Origin: Prevotella sp.
Lineage (GTDB): Bacteria > Bacteroidota > Bacteroidia > Bacteroidales > Bacteroidaceae
Reading direction: 5' to 3'
Assembly: GCA_017458225.1 (NCBI GenBank)
Contig: JAFTFX010000001.1
Span: 45,915-109,914 of the forward strand
Length of the DNA: 64,000 nucleotides
Shown: positions 8,963 to 31,728 of the stretch, piece by piece
Layout: every line of letters starts with the position of its first letter
Numbering within the stretch: position 1 is the stretch's first letter
Made by a program: the position numbers and the translations under genes
Notes under the pieces: generated by a model
The model's database searches: none
What the model was told of the DNA's origin: nothing
Seen by the model: only the letters and a program-made list of their open reading frames with translations

Positions 8963-8993
8963 TTCTGTCTGGAGGGGAGCGATTCTAAAGAAC

Positions 8994-9067
8994 AGTGACT
9001 TATACTGATATAGGTAGACACATTTAATTGTTACTAAATGTGTCTACCTATATCAGTATAAGTCACT
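8994..9067. repeat. perfect 33-bp inverted repeat (long hairpin)
   Basis: Bases 8994-9026 and 9035-9067 are exact reverse complements separated by 8 bases. The arms begin AGTGACTTATACTG and include GGTAGACACATTTA. The right arm ends where the truncated ATPase frame becomes recognisable, so the hairpin marks the break. No transposase or obvious target duplication was seen. A MITE-like remnant is possible. Confidence 0.7.
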
Positions 9068-10013
9068 CTCATTTCCCGTGGGCAGAGTCGACTTCCTGCC
9101 GGTACGCCCCTGCTCATTCAAGGAGTTTGTGACTGCCATCGGCAAGGAGAGCCAGTTGGTTATGATGGACAGCCCGGAGGTGACCGTGGCTTTCCACGAG
9201 GAGTATATGTCGCTTTTCAACCAGTACTTCTTGGTGGGGGGCATGCCAGAGGCTGTCCAGCACTATGCCGACCGTCGCGACATCCTGTCCATGAACCACA
9301 TCTATGCCCGCCTGCTGCGTGCCTATATGGATGATGTGGAGAAATACACGAAGACCAGCAAGATGACGGATACCGTGCGGTTTATCATCCAAAACGGTTA
9401 GATGCAGGCAGGTGCCACCATCACGCTGGGCAACTTCTGCGGCTCGGCCTGCAAGTCACGCGAGGTGGGTGAGGCTTTCCGCCTGTTGCAGAAAGCCATG
9501 CTATTGGAGCTGGCCTATCCTACAACTTCGGCCATGCTGCCTGCCATACCCGAACACCAAAGGATGCCGAAACTTTTCTGGTTCGACACGGGCTTGGTGA
9601 ACTATGTGGGGAAGGTGCGAAAGGAGGTCATTGGCACCAATGCCATCCTGGACATGTGGAAAGGCCGTATCGCAGAGCAGGTGGTGGCGCAGGAACTGCT
9701 CACACTGAACACAGACATCAACCAGACGCGCACTTTCTGGACCAGGGGCAAAGGCACGCAGGGCGCTGAGGTCGACCTCCTATGGGTGGTCGATTCAGAA
9801 CTTATCCCCATCGAGGTGAAAGCTGGTCACAACTCCCATCTGCGCTCCCTCCACTCTTTCATGGACGATTCGCCCGTCAGCGTTTGGTCTGGCCCCTTCT
9901 CTGTCGACGATGTGGTGACGACCAACAAACGGAAGCCTTTCCGGCTGATTAATCTCCCGTTCTATCTGGTGGGGAATCTGGAGCAAATTGTCAGAAAGTA
10001 CCTTTTTGTTTAA
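9068..10013 (+). pseudogene. AAA-type ATPase with DUF4143 C-terminus, 5'-truncated with internal stop
   Basis: The frame opens at FPVGRVDFLPVRPCSFKEF, which matches the middle of AAA_14/DUF4143 ATPases, normally about 380-400 residues long. The Walker A and B front half is missing, cut off at the 33-bp hairpin. A TAG at 9399-9401 interrupts the frame after FIIQNG. The same frame then continues through KLFWFDTGLVNYV, WKGRIAEQVVAQELL and GTQGAEVDLLWVVDSELIPIEVK, the nuclease-like DUF4143 end. Two independent lesions make this a pseudogene. The intact family is predicted to couple an ATPase to a PD-(D/E)XK-like fold; its role is unclear. Confidence 0.85.
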
Positions 10014-20767: not shown

Positions 20768-23700
20768 ATGAAGATACAGGATCTGTCAACGCTCTATGCC
20801 CATCTGCCTCAGGTGGCAGCATTCGACAAACTGCTGCGGCAGAAGCATCCACAAGTGATTCGCCTGCGCGGACTGATAGCCTCCAGTGCCCCTTTGTTGC
20901 TGAGTGCCTTGTCGGCCAAGAGGGACGGGCTGATGCTGATTGTGATGAACGATGAGGAAGAGGCAGGTTATTTCTATCACGACCTGACGCAGCTGATGGG
21001 GGATGAGCAAGTGCTCTATTTCCCGTCGTCCTATCGTCGTGCCATCAAGTATGCGCAGAAAGATGCGGCTAACGAGATTCTGCGTACCGAAGTACTTGCC
21101 AAGTTGGATCAGGGAACGGTGCGCTACGTGGTCACTCATCCGGAGGCTGTTGCTGAAATGGTGGTCACCAAGAAAAACTTGGAGACACGCACCTTGTCCT
21201 TAGAGCAGGAGCAGACGATAAGCGTCGACGATGTCATCAGCCAGTTGCGCTCTTTGGGCTTTCGCGAGGTCGACTATGTCTATGAGCCCGGTCAGTTTGC
21301 TCTGCGTGGCAGCATTCTCGATGTGTTTTCCTTCAGTCATGAGTATCCTTTCCGCATTGATTTCTTTGGTGATGATATAGATTCTATCCGCACGTTTGAG
21401 GTTGAAGACCAGCTGTCGCGTGAGCGTTGCCGGCAGGTCAGCATCGTGCCGGAGCTATCTGCCGTTGAGGAGAAAGAATCCCTGTTCCGCTATCTGCCCA
21501 GCGATACCGTTTTGCTGTTCAAGAACTATCGGTATGTGCGCGAAATGATTGACCGCACCTATCAGGAAGGCTTCTCTTCCCAGGCCATGACGGAGCGTCT
21601 GGAGGTAGCTACCGAAATGGAACGTGAGGAGATAGAGCGCGAAATGCGCCGCGAGACACAGATCATAACAGGTTCGCAGTTCCTTGCAGACAGCGAGTCT
21701 TTCCGTCGCATCGAGCTGCAGAGTGCTCCCAACGACGAGGACAGCATATCAACGAAAACAGCCGAAGCGGCTAAGACTGGGCAAGCCACGATCAGGTTCA
21801 ACATCGTTCCGCAGCCCCTCTTCCATAAGAACTTCGAACTGCTGCAAAAGACTTTCGAGGACTATCAGCTGCAGGGCTATCACCTCTATATCTTGGCTGA
21901 CAGTCAGAAGCAGCAGGAGCGTCTGCATGAAATCCTGGCCTCTATGTCTGGGGAACAGTCAGATGCCGGTTCTGCTTCTTCCAAACAGTTTTTTGTTTCT
22001 GTCGACAAGACCCTTCATGAGGGCTTCGTCGACGAGGATCTGCGTGTCTGTTTCTTCACCGATCATCAGATTTTCGACCGTTTCCATAAGTACAACCTGA
22101 AGAGCGACAAGGCCCGTAGCGGCAAGGTCGCCCTGACGCTGAAGGAGATTCAGCAGTTCGAGATTGGCGACTATGTGGTTCATGTGGACCACGGCATCGG
22201 CAAGTTCATGGGACTTGTCCGCATGCCTATCACCACAGCCACCGGGCAACAGGCTTATCAGGAGATGATCAAGATACAGTATCAGCATGGCGACAGCATC
22301 TATGTGTCTATCCATTCGCTCTATAAGGTATCGAAATACAAGGCTCAGGACAACGGTCAGCCACCGCGTATGTCGTTCCTTGGCACAGGACAGTGGGAGC
22401 GACTGAAGGAGCGCACCAAGAAACACATCAAGGACATTGCGCGCGACCTGATTCGTCTCTACTCCAAGCGTCGCACGCAGCGCGGCTTCGCCTTCAGCCA
22501 CGACACCTACATGCAGCACGAGCTTGAGGCCTCGTTCCTCTATGAAGATACGCCAGACCAGTTGAAGGCCACGCAGGACGTGAAAGCCGATATGGAGACG
22601 GCACGGCCCATGGACCGTCTGGTCTGCGGCGATGTGGGCTTCGGTAAGACCGAGGTGGCCGTGCGTGCAGCCTTCAAGGCAGCTGTCGACGGCAAGCAGG
22701 TGGCCGTACTTGTGCCTACCACGGTGCTGGCCTATCAGCACTTCCGCACGTTCTCGGGCCGTTTGAAAGACATGCCCGTAAAGGTCGATTACCTCACTCG
22801 AGCCCGGACGGCGAAGCAGACCACTGCTCTCTTGAAAGAGCTTGAAGAAGGCAAGATAGACATTCTGATAGGCACCCAGAAACTCATTGGCAAGAATGTG
22901 AAGTTCAAGGACCTGGGCCTGCTAATCATCGACGAGGAACAGAAGTTCGGCGTTGCTGCCAAGGAGAAGCTGCGCCAGCTGAAGACCAATGTCGACACGC
23001 TCACCATGTCGGCCACTCCCATTCCGCGCACCCTGCAGTTCTCGCTCCTCGGGGCTCGCGACCTCAGCGTCATTCAGACACCACCGCCCAACCGCTATCC
23101 CATTCAGACCGAGATACACACGTTCTCTCCTGAGATTGTTGTCGATGCCGTCAACTTCGAGATGTCGCGCAACGGACAGGTGTACTTCGTCAACAACCGC
23201 ATCAGCGACCTGCCCCATTTGGCAGAGATGATTCAGAAGTATATTCCCGATGCACGCATTGCCGTCGGGCACGGACAGATGAAGCCCGAAGAGCTGGAGG
23301 ACATCGTGTTGGGATTTTCCAATTACGACTACGATGTGCTGCTGTCCACCACTATCGTAGAGAATGGCATCGATATTCCCAATGCCAACACCATTATCAT
23401 CAATGGTGCCCATAATTTCGGCCTCTCCGACTTGCATCAGATGCGCGGTCGTGTGGGTCGCGGCAACCGCAAGGCCTTCTGCTATCTGCTCGCTCCGCCG
23501 CTGTCCGCTCTTCCTGCTGACTCTCGCCGCCGCCTTGAGGCACTTGAGAACTTCAGCGGACTGGGTTCAGGCATCAATATCGCCATGCAAGACCTCGACA
23601 TCCGTGGAGCCGGCAACCTGCTTGGAGCCGAACAGAGCGGCTTCATCAGCGACTTGGGCTACGAGACCTACCAGAAAATCTTGAACGAGGCCATGGCGGA

Positions 23701-24277
23701 GCTGAGGAACGAGGAACAGACTCTCCCCCAGCCCCTCCCTGTGAGTGAGGGGAGTGGTCACTCTCAAGGCGACGGTGGAGCGAATGGTCTAACTACTCCT
23801 GGGCTGGGGGAGAGTCTACTTTTTGTCGCTGACTGCATCCTTGAAAGCGATCTGCAGATGTACTTCCCCGACCAGTATGTGCCCAGCGATTCTGAGCGTA
23901 TGCTGCTCTATCGCGAACTCGACCATATTCGCGACGATAAGGAACTGGAAGCCTATCGCAGCCGTCTGCAGGACCGCTTCGGCCCCATTCCCCATGTTGC
24001 TGAAGAGCTGTTGCAGGTGGTGCGCCTGCGCCGCATCGGCATGAATCTCGGTTGCGAGAAAATCCTGTTGAAGCAGGGCCGCATGTTCATGTTCTTCGTC
24101 AGCAACGACCGCAGTCCCTTCTATCAGAGCGCAGCCTTCGGACGATTGCTCGACTATGCTGCCGCCAACGTGCGCCGCTGCAATCTCCGCGAGCAGCAGG
24201 GCAAGCGTTCCATGGTTGTCAGCGACGTGCCCACCGTGGAAGAAGCCGTGCGTGTGCTTATGGTGATAAGTCGGTAG
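20768..24277 (+). CDS. mfd: transcription-repair coupling factor Mfd, with in-frame palindromic insertion
   Basis: This 1169-residue ATPase removes stalled RNA polymerase from damaged DNA and recruits UvrA. The order is a UvrB-like N-terminal part, an RNA polymerase-interacting CarD-like domain (IGDYVVHVDHGIGKFMGLV, about residues 465-485), then two helicase lobes with GDVGFGKTEVA, DEEQKFGV and MSATPIPRTL, the RecG-like TRG motif, and the C-terminal domain. Residues 985-1016 (bases 23720-23815) have no counterpart in the family. They encode TLPQPLPVSEGSGHSQ onwards and come from a palindromic element also present in pheT. The insertion sits in the variable linker between the helicase part and the C-terminal domain, so activity is probably kept. 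Start: ATG 13 bp after the ribE stop. Confidence 0.96.
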   Translation: MKIQDLSTLYAHLPQVAAFDKLLRQKHPQVIRLRGLIASSAPLLLSALSAKRDGLMLIVMNDEEEAGYFYHDLTQLMGDEQVLYFPSSYRRAIKYAQKDAANEILRTEVLAKLDQGTVRYVVTHPEAVAEMVVTKKNLETRTLSLEQEQTISVDDVISQLRSLGFREVDYVYEPGQFALRGSILDVFSFSHEYPFRIDFFGDDIDSIRTFEVEDQLSRERCRQVSIVPELSAVEEKESLFRYLPSDTVLLFKNYRYVREMIDRTYQEGFSSQAMTERLEVATEMEREEIEREMRRETQIITGSQFLADSESFRRIELQSAPNDEDSISTKTAEAAKTGQATIRFNIVPQPLFHKNFELLQKTFEDYQLQGYHLYILADSQKQQERLHEILASMSGEQSDAGSASSKQFFVSVDKTLHEGFVDEDLRVCFFTDHQIFDRFHKYNLKSDKARSGKVALTLKEIQQFEIGDYVVHVDHGIGKFMGLVRMPITTATGQQAYQEMIKIQYQHGDSIYVSIHSLYKVSKYKAQDNGQPPRMSFLGTGQWERLKERTKKHIKDIARDLIRLYSKRRTQRGFAFSHDTYMQHELEASFLYEDTPDQLKATQDVKADMETARPMDRLVCGDVGFGKTEVAVRAAFKAAVDGKQVAVLVPTTVLAYQHFRTFSGRLKDMPVKVDYLTRARTAKQTTALLKELEEGKIDILIGTQKLIGKNVKFKDLGLLIIDEEQKFGVAAKEKLRQLKTNVDTLTMSATPIPRTLQFSLLGARDLSVIQTPPPNRYPIQTEIHTFSPEIVVDAVNFEMSRNGQVYFVNNRISDLPHLAEMIQKYIPDARIAVGHGQMKPEELEDIVLGFSNYDYDVLLSTTIVENGIDIPNANTIIINGAHNFGLSDLHQMRGRVGRGNRKAFCYLLAPPLSALPADSRRRLEALENFSGLGSGINIAMQDLDIRGAGNLLGAEQSGFISDLGYETYQKILNEAMAELRNEEQTLPQPLPVSEGSGHSQGDGGANGLTTPGLGESLLFVADCILESDLQMYFPDQYVPSDSERMLLYRELDHIRDDKELEAYRSRLQDRFGPIPHVAEELLQVVRLRRIGMNLGCEKILLKQGRMFMFFVSNDRSPFYQSAAFGRLLDYAAANVRRCNLREQQGKRSMVVSDVPTVEEAVRVLMVISR
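23720..23815. mobile_element. in-frame palindromic insertion element, mfd copy
   Basis: The 96-bp element has perfect 15-bp terminal inverted repeats, ACTCTCCCCCAGCCC and GGGCTGGGGGAGAGT. An inner CCCCTC...GAGGGG palindrome follows the left end. The length is 32 codons with no stop. The central part resembles the pheT element (TCACTCTCA, GG-C, then CTACTCC), which has an additional inner palindrome at its right side. No protein to move it is encoded. Confidence 0.75.
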
Positions 24278-29160: not shown

Positions 29161-31728
29161 ATGAACATTTCTTATAAATGGCTGAAGGAGTATGTTGACT
29201 TCGAACTTACGCCGCAGCAGGTGTGCGACGCACTGACCTCTACGGGACTTGAAGTTGATGCTCTGGAGGAAGTACAGACCATTCGTGGTGGTCTGAAAGG
29301 GCTGTATGTGGGCAAGGTGCTCACTTGCGAGGCCCATCCCAACAGCGACCATCTGCACGTGACGACCGTCGACCTGGGCAAGGGCGAGCCTTCGCAGATA
29401 GTATGCGGTGCGCCCAACGTGGCTGCCGGTCAGAAGGTCATCGTGGCTGATCTGGGATGTGTGCTCTACGATGGCGATAATGAGTTCGTAATCAAGAAGT
29501 CGAAACTGCGCGGCGTGGAGTCGTGCGGCATGATTTGTGCCGAAGATGAAATTGGCGTGGGCACCAGCCACGATGGAATCATCGTGCTGCCCGACGATGC
29601 TGTGGTGGGTACTCCTGCTGCAGAGTATTACCATCTGGAGAGCGACTGGCTCATCGAGGTCGACATCACCGCCAACCGTGCCGACGGTCTTTCGCACTGG
29701 GGCGTGGCCCGCGACCTCTATGCCTGGCTGAAACAGCGCCAGGCCGAAGGGCTCATCAGCTACGAGCCCCGTCTGCATCGCCCCGTGGCCGACGGTTTCT
29801 CCGTCGACAATCACGACCTACCCATTGAGGTGGAGATTGAGAATACCGAGGCCTGTAAGCGCTATGCCTGCGTGAGCATCACCGACTGCGAGGTGAAAGA
29901 AAGCCCCGACTGGCTGAAGAACAAACTGACAACCATCGGCCTGCGTCCTATCAATAATATCGTGGACATCACGAACTATATCATGATGGCCTACGGTCAG
30001 CCCCTGCACTGCTTCGATGCCGACATGGTGAAGGGTCACAAGATTGTGGTGAAGACGATGCCCGAGGGTACGCCCTTCGTGACGCTCGACGGCGTGGAGC
30101 ACAAACTCTCCGACCGCGACCTGGCCATCTGCAACGCTGAGGAGCCCATGTGCATCGCCGGCGTGTTTGGCGGCAAGGGCAGCGGCACCTACGAGACCAC
30201 GAAGAACGTGGTGCTTGAGTCGGCCTACTTCCATCCCACGTGGATTCGCAAGTCGGCCCGTCGACATGGTCTGTCGACCGATGCGTCGTTCCGTTTCGAG
30301 CGAGGCATCGACCCCAATGGCGTCATCTATGCCCTGCAGCAGGCAGCACTGCTCTGCAAGGAACTGGCAGGTGGTAAGGTGTCGATGGACATTTGCGACG
30401 TATATCCTGAGAAAATGGAAAATGCGAAGGTTGACCTGAAATACAACTATGTTGACTCGCTCATCGGCAAACAGATTCCTGCCGAGACGGTGAAGAACAT
30501 CTGCCGGTCGCTGGAGATGAAGATCCTCAGCGAAAATGCTGAGGGACTGCAGCTTGAAGTGCCGGCCTATCGCGTGGACGTGCAGCGCCCCTGCGACGTG
30601 GTCGAGGACATCCTGCGCATCTACGGATATAATAATGTGGAGATTCCCACACAGTTGAAGTCGAGCCTTGTCATCAAAGGCGAGGAAGACCGCAAGCACA
30701 AGCTGCAGAACCTAGTGTCGGAGCAGCTGGTGGGTGCCGGCTTCAATGAGATCCTGAACAACTCGTTGACAAAGACGGCCTACTACAGACCCTCCCCCCA
30801 GCCCCTCCCTGTGAGGGAGGGGAGTTTGTACTCTCAGGACGGAAATGCAGTGGAAGGTCAGCCTACTCCCCTCCCTCACAGGGAGGGGTTGGGGGGAGAG
30901 TCCCTTGTTCGCATCATGAACCCCCTCAGCAGCGATCTCGGCGTGATGCGCCAGACGCTTCTCTACGGTGGACTGGAGAGCATTGAGCACAACGTGAAGC
31001 GCAAGGCGCAGAACCTGCGTTTCTTCGAGTTCGGCAACTGCTACTTCTTCGACCCCGAGCGGCAGAACGAGGACAACCCCATGCAGGCCTACAAGGAAGA
31101 GAACTACCTGGGCCTTTGGGTGACAGGCAAGCGCGTGGAAGGCTCATGGGCTCACCCCAACGAGGACAGCACCTACTATGAACTGGCTGCCTACGTGCAG
31201 AACATTCTGCAGCGCATCGGCCTGAAGCAAGGCATGCTGGTGACGAAGAAGTTGGAGAATCCTAACTTCTCGGCTGGCCTCTTGATGGAGAACCGCGGCG
31301 GCAAGAAGCTCATCGAGGTGGGCATCCTCTCGAAGAAACTGCTGAAGCAGTTCGACCTGCAGCAGCCCGTCTACTTTGCCGAATTGAACTGGACGCAGCT
31401 GATGAAGGCCACGAAGAAGAACGAGATTACCTACACCGAAATCTCAAAGCATCCGGCCGTCAGCCGCGACCTCGCCCTGCTGGTCGACAACGCTGTAGAG
31501 TTCGCCCAGATTGAGCAGATAGCCCGTCAGACGGAGAAGAAGCTGCTGAAGCGCGTGGAACTCTTCGATGTCTACGAGGGCGACAAACTGCCTCAGGGCA
31601 AGAAGTCGTATGCCGTCAACTTCATCCTGCAAGACACGGAGAAGACCATGAACGACAAGCAGATTGATGCCGTGATGCAGAAGCTCATCGCTAACCTGAA
31701 GAAGCAGTTGGGCGCAGAGCTGAGGTAA
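29161..31728 (+). CDS. pheT: phenylalanyl-tRNA synthetase beta chain, with in-frame palindromic insertion
   Basis: An 855-residue subunit that with PheS charges tRNA-Phe. Domain order: a tRNA-binding OB fold (residues about 40-155, VTTVDLGKGEPSQIVCGAPN), B3/B4 editing domain, B5 domain, the catalytic-like core, and a C-terminal anticodon-binding domain (AVSRDLALLVDNAVEF). Family members in this phylum are near 820 residues. The excess is explained by residues about 543-581 (bases 30788-30902), read as RPSPQPLPVREGSLYSQ and so on, in place of the short loop between LTKTAYY and VRIMNPLSSDLG. The insertion copies the palindromic element found in mfd and keeps the frame. The gene has its own promoter. 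Confidence 0.96.
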   Translation: MNISYKWLKEYVDFELTPQQVCDALTSTGLEVDALEEVQTIRGGLKGLYVGKVLTCEAHPNSDHLHVTTVDLGKGEPSQIVCGAPNVAAGQKVIVADLGCVLYDGDNEFVIKKSKLRGVESCGMICAEDEIGVGTSHDGIIVLPDDAVVGTPAAEYYHLESDWLIEVDITANRADGLSHWGVARDLYAWLKQRQAEGLISYEPRLHRPVADGFSVDNHDLPIEVEIENTEACKRYACVSITDCEVKESPDWLKNKLTTIGLRPINNIVDITNYIMMAYGQPLHCFDADMVKGHKIVVKTMPEGTPFVTLDGVEHKLSDRDLAICNAEEPMCIAGVFGGKGSGTYETTKNVVLESAYFHPTWIRKSARRHGLSTDASFRFERGIDPNGVIYALQQAALLCKELAGGKVSMDICDVYPEKMENAKVDLKYNYVDSLIGKQIPAETVKNICRSLEMKILSENAEGLQLEVPAYRVDVQRPCDVVEDILRIYGYNNVEIPTQLKSSLVIKGEEDRKHKLQNLVSEQLVGAGFNEILNNSLTKTAYYRPSPQPLPVREGSLYSQDGNAVEGQPTPLPHREGLGGESLVRIMNPLSSDLGVMRQTLLYGGLESIEHNVKRKAQNLRFFEFGNCYFFDPERQNEDNPMQAYKEENYLGLWVTGKRVEGSWAHPNEDSTYYELAAYVQNILQRIGLKQGMLVTKKLENPNFSAGLLMENRGGKKLIEVGILSKKLLKQFDLQQPVYFAELNWTQLMKATKKNEITYTEISKHPAVSRDLALLVDNAVEFAQIEQIARQTEKKLLKRVELFDVYEGDKLPQGKKSYAVNFILQDTEKTMNDKQIDAVMQKLIANLKKQLGAELR
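30788..30902. mobile_element. in-frame palindromic insertion element, pheT copy
   Basis: The 115-bp element has 38-bp terminal inverted repeats with 2 mismatches (30788-30825 and 30865-30902). Each arm itself contains the palindrome CCCCTCCCT-gtg-AGGGAGGGG or its complement. It is read in the same frame as the mfd copy, both giving PQPLPVxEGSxxSQ. Compared with this copy the mfd copy lacks about 19 bp, mainly the right inner palindrome. Confidence 0.8.

Follow-up and report, generated by a model that had tools for sequence, protein, structure and literature searches.

How a palindromic element of 117 bp comes to lie in frame within the gene for the beta subunit of phenylalanyl-tRNA synthetase, and what may have carried it there, is the question raised by pheT in the window studied here, i.e. 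the whole 64,000-nucleotide stretch from a Prevotella assembly (2.24 Mb, about 75% complete). The gene (29161..31728, forward strand) is an open reading frame of 855 codons including the insert, and solved PheT chains match the protein on both sides of it. The compact element (30787..30903), defined by its sequence and its inverted arms, occupies residues 543-581 approximately and is open in frame, with the translation RPSPQPLPVREGSLYSQDGNAVEGQPTPLPHREGLGGES. It comprises a left arm (30788..30825, forward strand), made up of an outer C-rich tail, a two-base spacer and a hairpin in a register suited to a triplex; an interior of 39 bases (30826..30864) that is like the interiors of other compact copies (SQG...A...EL in the peptide); and a right arm (30865..30902, reverse strand) that is an inverted copy of the left with mismatches at 2 of the 38 positions. 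The hairpin CCCCTCCCT-GTG-AGGGAGGGG is present in each arm. A first-pass annotation of this DNA had described inverted ends of 38 bp with two mismatches, each of them palindromic, and that description holds, the coordinates being correct to within 1-2 bases.

The palindrome is real and not a product of chance, since its core, CCCTCCCTNNNAGGGAGGG, occurs 69 times in the genome when up to 2 mismatches are allowed, as against no occurrences of the reversed control pattern. A seed-based search of the window for 38-bp inverted repeats with no more than 3 mismatches found two, namely the pheT insert and an unrelated hairpin near position 9000, while none appeared in 5 shuffles. That hairpin (8993-9068) is perfect, with arms of about 32-36 bp (GTGACTTATACTGATATAGGTAGACAC...) that have no relation to arms of the pheT type. 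A further arm pair lies roughly 130-280 bases to the left of window position 1 (G000:C34:45639-45781, or L113:3039-3183, G000 being the window's own assembly).

Within the window, a second copy of the element lies in the gene for the transcription-repair coupling factor, mfd (20768..24277, forward strand; an open reading frame of 1169 codons including the insert, with solved Mfd chains matching on both sides). This copy (23719..23816) is also in frame, and its translation, TLPQPLPVSEGSGHSQ..., is in the same frame as that of the pheT copy, bearing out the earlier suggestion that the two share a peptide. At 98 bp as against 117 bp it is 19 bp shorter and has lost the inner right hairpin; it is thus a reduced form, as had been proposed. 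Alignment to the E. coli protein breaks off at residue 1009 and resumes at 1029, and in the single relative compared (L045) the site is empty.

For pheT the comparison with relatives can be made much more fully. All 80 of the PheT relatives compared span the insertion site and none of them carries the arm peptide there; the earlier view of the insert as a dispersed, inserted element is upheld. The same comparison identifies the site as a variable loop, at which two relatives (L015 and L017) carry different inserts, unrelated to this one; alignment to E. coli PheT is interrupted between residues 514 and 531. When the 80 loci (1.43 Mb) were searched for arms with a strict regular expression, in a pattern that was possibly faulty, none was found, and a simpler arm pattern found one related palindrome only, in L055. 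Among named assemblies, the best matches to this PheT come from Prevotella, in several cases of rumen origin.

Elsewhere in the genome the element is abundant. Used as a DNA query, the pheT insert gives 108 matches in its own assembly at E ≤ 0.001 (both strands and both arms being counted), and it matches 17 of 60 genomes searched, the window's own included, all 17 of which are among the 36 belonging to the same genus. Curation yielded at least 42 places where the element occurs, a few of them diverged or consisting of single arms. Open frames were measured from one stop to the next, with a minimum of 100 codons, and the longest one overlapping a copy contains the whole of it at 28 of the 42 places, though some of these (e.g. 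L115 and L118) may represent extensions upstream and not coding sequence; at the remaining 14 the overlap is partial and frequently falls where a gene begins. Insertion in frame thus occurs in unrelated protein-coding genes, the hosts recognised by profile including topoisomerase, GcvT, RNB exoribonuclease, DnaG and DapF, together with LeuRS, CTP synthase, ArgG, ArgC and glutamate synthase.

The dominant reading of the copies is (K/R)TLPQPLPVREGS...STPLPHREGxGES. The first-pass annotation had remarked on a common frame, and it is true that the right arm is mostly read as STPLPHREG, but two other frames, giving YSPPSQGG and PSLTGRG, are also used. In one frame of the left arm the TGA of CCCTGTGAGGG acts as a stop; L114, the copy translated in this frame, has CTGCGAGG in its place. 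Two reasons for the shared frame had been put forward, selection for a readable orientation or a mechanism inserting in multiples of three, and the second of these is not supported: the spans of the 42 places, whose edges were set by hand, fill all three classes modulo 3 (11, 15 and 16). Because other frames and other lengths do occur, in-frame retention looks like selection acting on tolerated copies, to judge from the sequences, and such copies may persist because most frames through the arms are free of stops and the insertion sites lie in variable loops.

The arm itself is of a recognisable kind. It consists of a hairpin with a purine tail, so as to present a pyrimidine block, a purine block and a third block, also of purines, in mirror symmetry with the second, which is the arrangement of the published BoxC/PIT intrastrand-triplex motif. 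Over the 43 exact-core hairpins in the stretches fetched from the window's assembly, taken without selection by tail, the tail on the better side mirrors the purine block in 39, with 7-8 of 8 triads being allowed ones; 7 is reached by 1 of the 43 tails on the opposite side and by 4.0% of better-side tails after shuffling. In principle, then, the arm could fold as an intrastrand triplex. The likeness to BoxC/PIT extends to high copy number, to the occurrence of inverted pairs and to local variability, as described in the relevant parts of the published survey (PMC4666352). It differs in that, according to the portion of the survey dealing with E. coli K-12, the copies there are always intergenic and mobility functions were never found around them (PMC4666352), whereas many of the Prevotella copies are in coding sequence and a nuclease gene is found between arms of this type.

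This last point is central to the interpretation proposed here, and the evidence for it comes from outside the window. In the window's own assembly a gene of the DUF559 family (Vsr-like nucleases) is enclosed by arms that barely differ from those in pheT (L119:3008-3488), and within the genus 70 of the 120 genomes searched contain DUF559. An inverted-repeat score of at least 30 in the 350-base flanks, a threshold chosen after the first 30 DUF559 loci had been looked at, was reached by 75 of 91 DUF559 loci, or 74 of 88 distinct ones (L152 being the same as L227, L155 as L228 and L166 as L255), several of which represent one site in different species and are therefore not independent; the other 14 fall below it. 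These loci are L119 together with 90 from a longer list, mostly the stronger matches. No control window out of 135 reached the threshold (maximum 28), these being korB, pyrG and pheT loci less four that bear arms or DUF559 (L167, L182, L197 and L199), and lying inside genes, so that they do not match an intergenic context. Random pairing of the left flank of one DUF559 locus with the right flank of another gave scores of 30 or more in 106 of 600 cases. The arms vary from element to element but match within an element.

Several further observations tie the nuclease gene to the arms. The DUF559 gene on contig 61 of genome G134 has exactly the arm variant that is amplified in G134 and in G094. 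Over the 120 genomes the numbers of DUF559 matches and of palindromes are correlated (rho 0.51, p 3.5e-9; 0.49 with genome size ranked out; phylogeny uncorrected), and all 12 genomes with at least 20 palindromes have two or more DUF559 matches, compared with 26 of the other 108. The two do not always coincide, in that 22 of the 70 genomes with DUF559 hold no palindromes of the pheT arm type. At the starts of argG and argC there are MITE-type copies in the window's assembly and DUF559 copies in other species. The korA/korB junction carries arm, DUF559 and arm in four species (L137, L140, L141 and L145), and among the 30 korB loci listed in a separate search 28 are without this arrangement, the two filled ones being the species of L137 and L145. 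On contig 11 of the window's assembly a DUF559 gene forms an in-frame fusion with a SpoU methylase gene, the whole lying between inverted arms (L143:1435-2412).

As regards the protein, a profile built from 20 DUF559 sequences matches the structures 3hrl (5.1e-32) and 3r3p, annotated "Mobile intron protein" (1.1e-6), and so relates the family to a solved endonuclease-like protein, 3r3p being what we take to be I-Bth0305I. There are 18 invariant columns among the 20 sequences, including E45, D73, E84, D86, H90 and D99. In the published work, passages on Caulobacter DUF559 describe a Vsr-like repair role (PMC12907096), fusions of DUF559 to SPOUT methyltransferases have been noted (PMC1829167), and YcjD has been assigned to the PD-(D/E)XK proteins, in the neighbourhood of Vsr (PMC1189080). 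No paper joining DUF559 to triplex-type repeats was found in the open PMC literature.

That the element consists of such arms, which may or may not enclose a DUF559 gene, is well supported. The pheT insert is, we think, probably a compact, non-autonomous copy of a nuclease-encoding mobile element with triplex-type ends, which its nuclease spreads by cutting. The insertion, the structure of the arms, their association with the nuclease and the in-frame copies are shown by the sequences. The element ends in a pair of inverted arms, each made up of a hairpin and a purine tail, and full copies have a single DUF559 gene between arms of this kind, the nuclease sometimes being in frame inside a host protein. 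We infer that the nuclease is active and would nick or break the target DNA, whereupon repair might copy the arm pair into the break, compact copies presumably being served in trans.

The most serious competitor to this scheme, although an unlikely one, holds that the arms spread through errors of replication or repair at triplex-forming DNA, that DUF559 is a second selfish gene colonising arm pairs through arm homology, and that the interior is replaceable cargo. Comparison of G094 and G134, which are 81-94% identical over shared stretches, supplies some of the grounds for it: at one site the arms are kept and the interior is replaced, and at one site G134 has arm, DUF559 and arm where G094 has a different arm family and no DUF559. 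More generally, some sites are filled in one of these two genomes only, with the counterpart often occupied by a different repeat. Palindromes are present in 16 of the 50 genomes with no DUF559 match, three of which (G022, G032 and G124) hold at least 10, and the published survey, in the part concerned, ties the triplex motif to local instability (PMC4666352). What this scheme leaves unexplained, unless the nuclease also spreads arms, is the match of arm variants to the resident copy of the nuclease, as well as the correlation between the counts of DUF559 and of palindromes.

A conventional transposase that has so far escaped detection, with DUF559 as a frequent passenger, seems improbable: the assemblies are incomplete and movement is an indirect conclusion, which leaves it some room, but in the DUF559 loci examined there is little between the arms besides the nuclease, and no other gene was seen there. 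Slightly more improbable again is a REPIN-like element moved by a RAYT (a Y1 transposase), as might be suggested by a dispersed pair of inverted palindromes with a spacer and by one weak Y1_Tnp match in the window's assembly; this gene has no arms of the pheT type beside it, and RAYT and palindrome counts are uncorrelated over the 120 genomes (rho 0.14, p 0.13), so that this origin was rejected. The flank score is 16 at this locus, L009, and 20, 17, 248 and 33 at four other RAYT loci; two of the five thus have inverted flanks, of other sequence, showing that such flanks are not unique to DUF559, and the two genomes concerned hold no pheT-type palindromes. In L009:1248-2655 (contig 19) the weak Y1_Tnp gene is followed by a different inverted repeat (CTCTCCGCAGGACTCAGAC...); the flanks scoring 248 belong to a RAYT gene on contig 95 of G002 (L389). 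Hardly any credence can be given to a peptide conserved for function, since, although common to PheT, Mfd and others, it is absent from all 80 PheT relatives and recurs in unrelated proteins and in other frames.

Returning to the nuclease-encoding element, the way in which its arms are paired deserves separate comment. Neighbouring hairpins less than 1 kb apart face inward in 30 of 32 cases in G094 and in all 10 in G134, at spacings of 52-689 bases; for this count a palindrome that had been entered for both strands was removed from each genome (G094 C110 and G134 C24). The CTP synthases of the window's assembly and of G074 have both arms, in the same two loops, and the segment between them is native, being present without arms in the 28 others of the 30 loci listed. 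The arm pair in DapF likewise brackets native sequence, as judged against solved homologues, and at several gene starts the bracket takes in the start codon. We know of no precedent for arm pairs that bracket native sequence. No target-site duplication was seen at filled sites or in the comparison of G094 with G134, where the flanks have diverged. A second family of inverted repeats, which is AT-rich (TTCACTCTTCACTTTTAACTC...), was seen at L262:2976-3158 in G094 and is absent from the same place in G134 (L263); in relatives the loops of CTP synthase and of PheT contain similar peptides, NSQLSTLNSQL and NSSFFTLHSSL.

DUF559 domains are also found inside larger open frames, in LeuRS (L229, L230 and L289) and MetH (L309), in an AAA ATPase of two species, at a shared site (L228 and L231), in DegT-type aminotransferases (L234 and L236) and in an epimerase (L235). 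The flanks score above the threshold for L228, L230, L231, L234 and L309 and below it for L229 (28), L235 (20), L236 (18) and L289 (16). No intein or intron domain was found in these cases among Pfam matches at 1e-8. In LeuRS a short copy in the window's assembly and the DUF559 domain in G067 are at the same residue, with arms of different families.

A more far-reaching reading, which we put forward tentatively as possible rather than probable, is that these are a class of bacterial mobile element not previously described, with one DUF559 gene between inverted triplex-forming arms, that BoxC/PIT repeats are its widespread non-autonomous remains, and that the arm is a mobile single-strand unit. 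The nuclease would nick the two target strands some distance apart and the same folded arm would enter each nick. If true, this would account for inward-facing arm pairs bracketing native sequence (as in CTP synthase and DapF), for compact copies, where the nicks coincide, and for nuclease insertions that are in frame in LeuRS and MetH without splicing. It is made slightly less likely by the difference in LeuRS arm families between the window's assembly and G067 and by the failure of several in-frame nucleases in the flank test.

Beyond the genus, a DUF559 match is present in 109 of 198 Bacteroidota genomes, and 18 of the 29 new loci listed pass the flank test. From 56 plasmid records 8 loci were chosen, of which 5 pass (three from cyanobacteria, one from Deinococcus and one from Sphingomonas; that from Azospirillum fails). 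For ycjD, the DUF559 gene of E. coli K-12, the flank score is 18, with a BoxC-type arm on one side only. The K-12 version of the region fabI-ycjD-sapF (L316:5163-5830) is covered to at least 80% in 3330 of 5426 E. coli genomes; it has ycjD and the BoxC-type arm where two other strains have an efflux operon, an operon that has been reported between fabI and sapF in E. coli (PMC12817139, in the passage on this region). As both of the strains examined that lack ycjD have this operon, an exact junction could not be read, and ycjD was rejected as a clean empty site.

Set against known systems, the element resembles the palindromic elements of Rickettsia, which, in the account consulted for them, are of about 100-150 bp and lie in frame in unrelated genes with a shared peptide (PMC10969869), as here; going by description only, the Prevotella elements differ in having triplex-type arms, relatives with a nuclease gene, and pairs that bracket native sequence. 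REPINs moved by RAYTs similarly have two inverted palindromes and a spacer, but no link to a RAYT was found for the Prevotella element. Homing endonucleases share a nuclease fold related by profile (3r3p) and insertion in conserved genes; the difference is that the in-frame cases here have no intein or intron Pfam domain and that the element is dispersed, with small copies consisting of arms only. Palindromic inserts in frame in essential proteins have here a second example beside Rickettsia, extending in LeuRS and MetH to a whole nuclease domain, and the repeated presence of a nuclease gene between matching arms suggests what may spread a long-known family of repeats, a suggestion that is directly testable.
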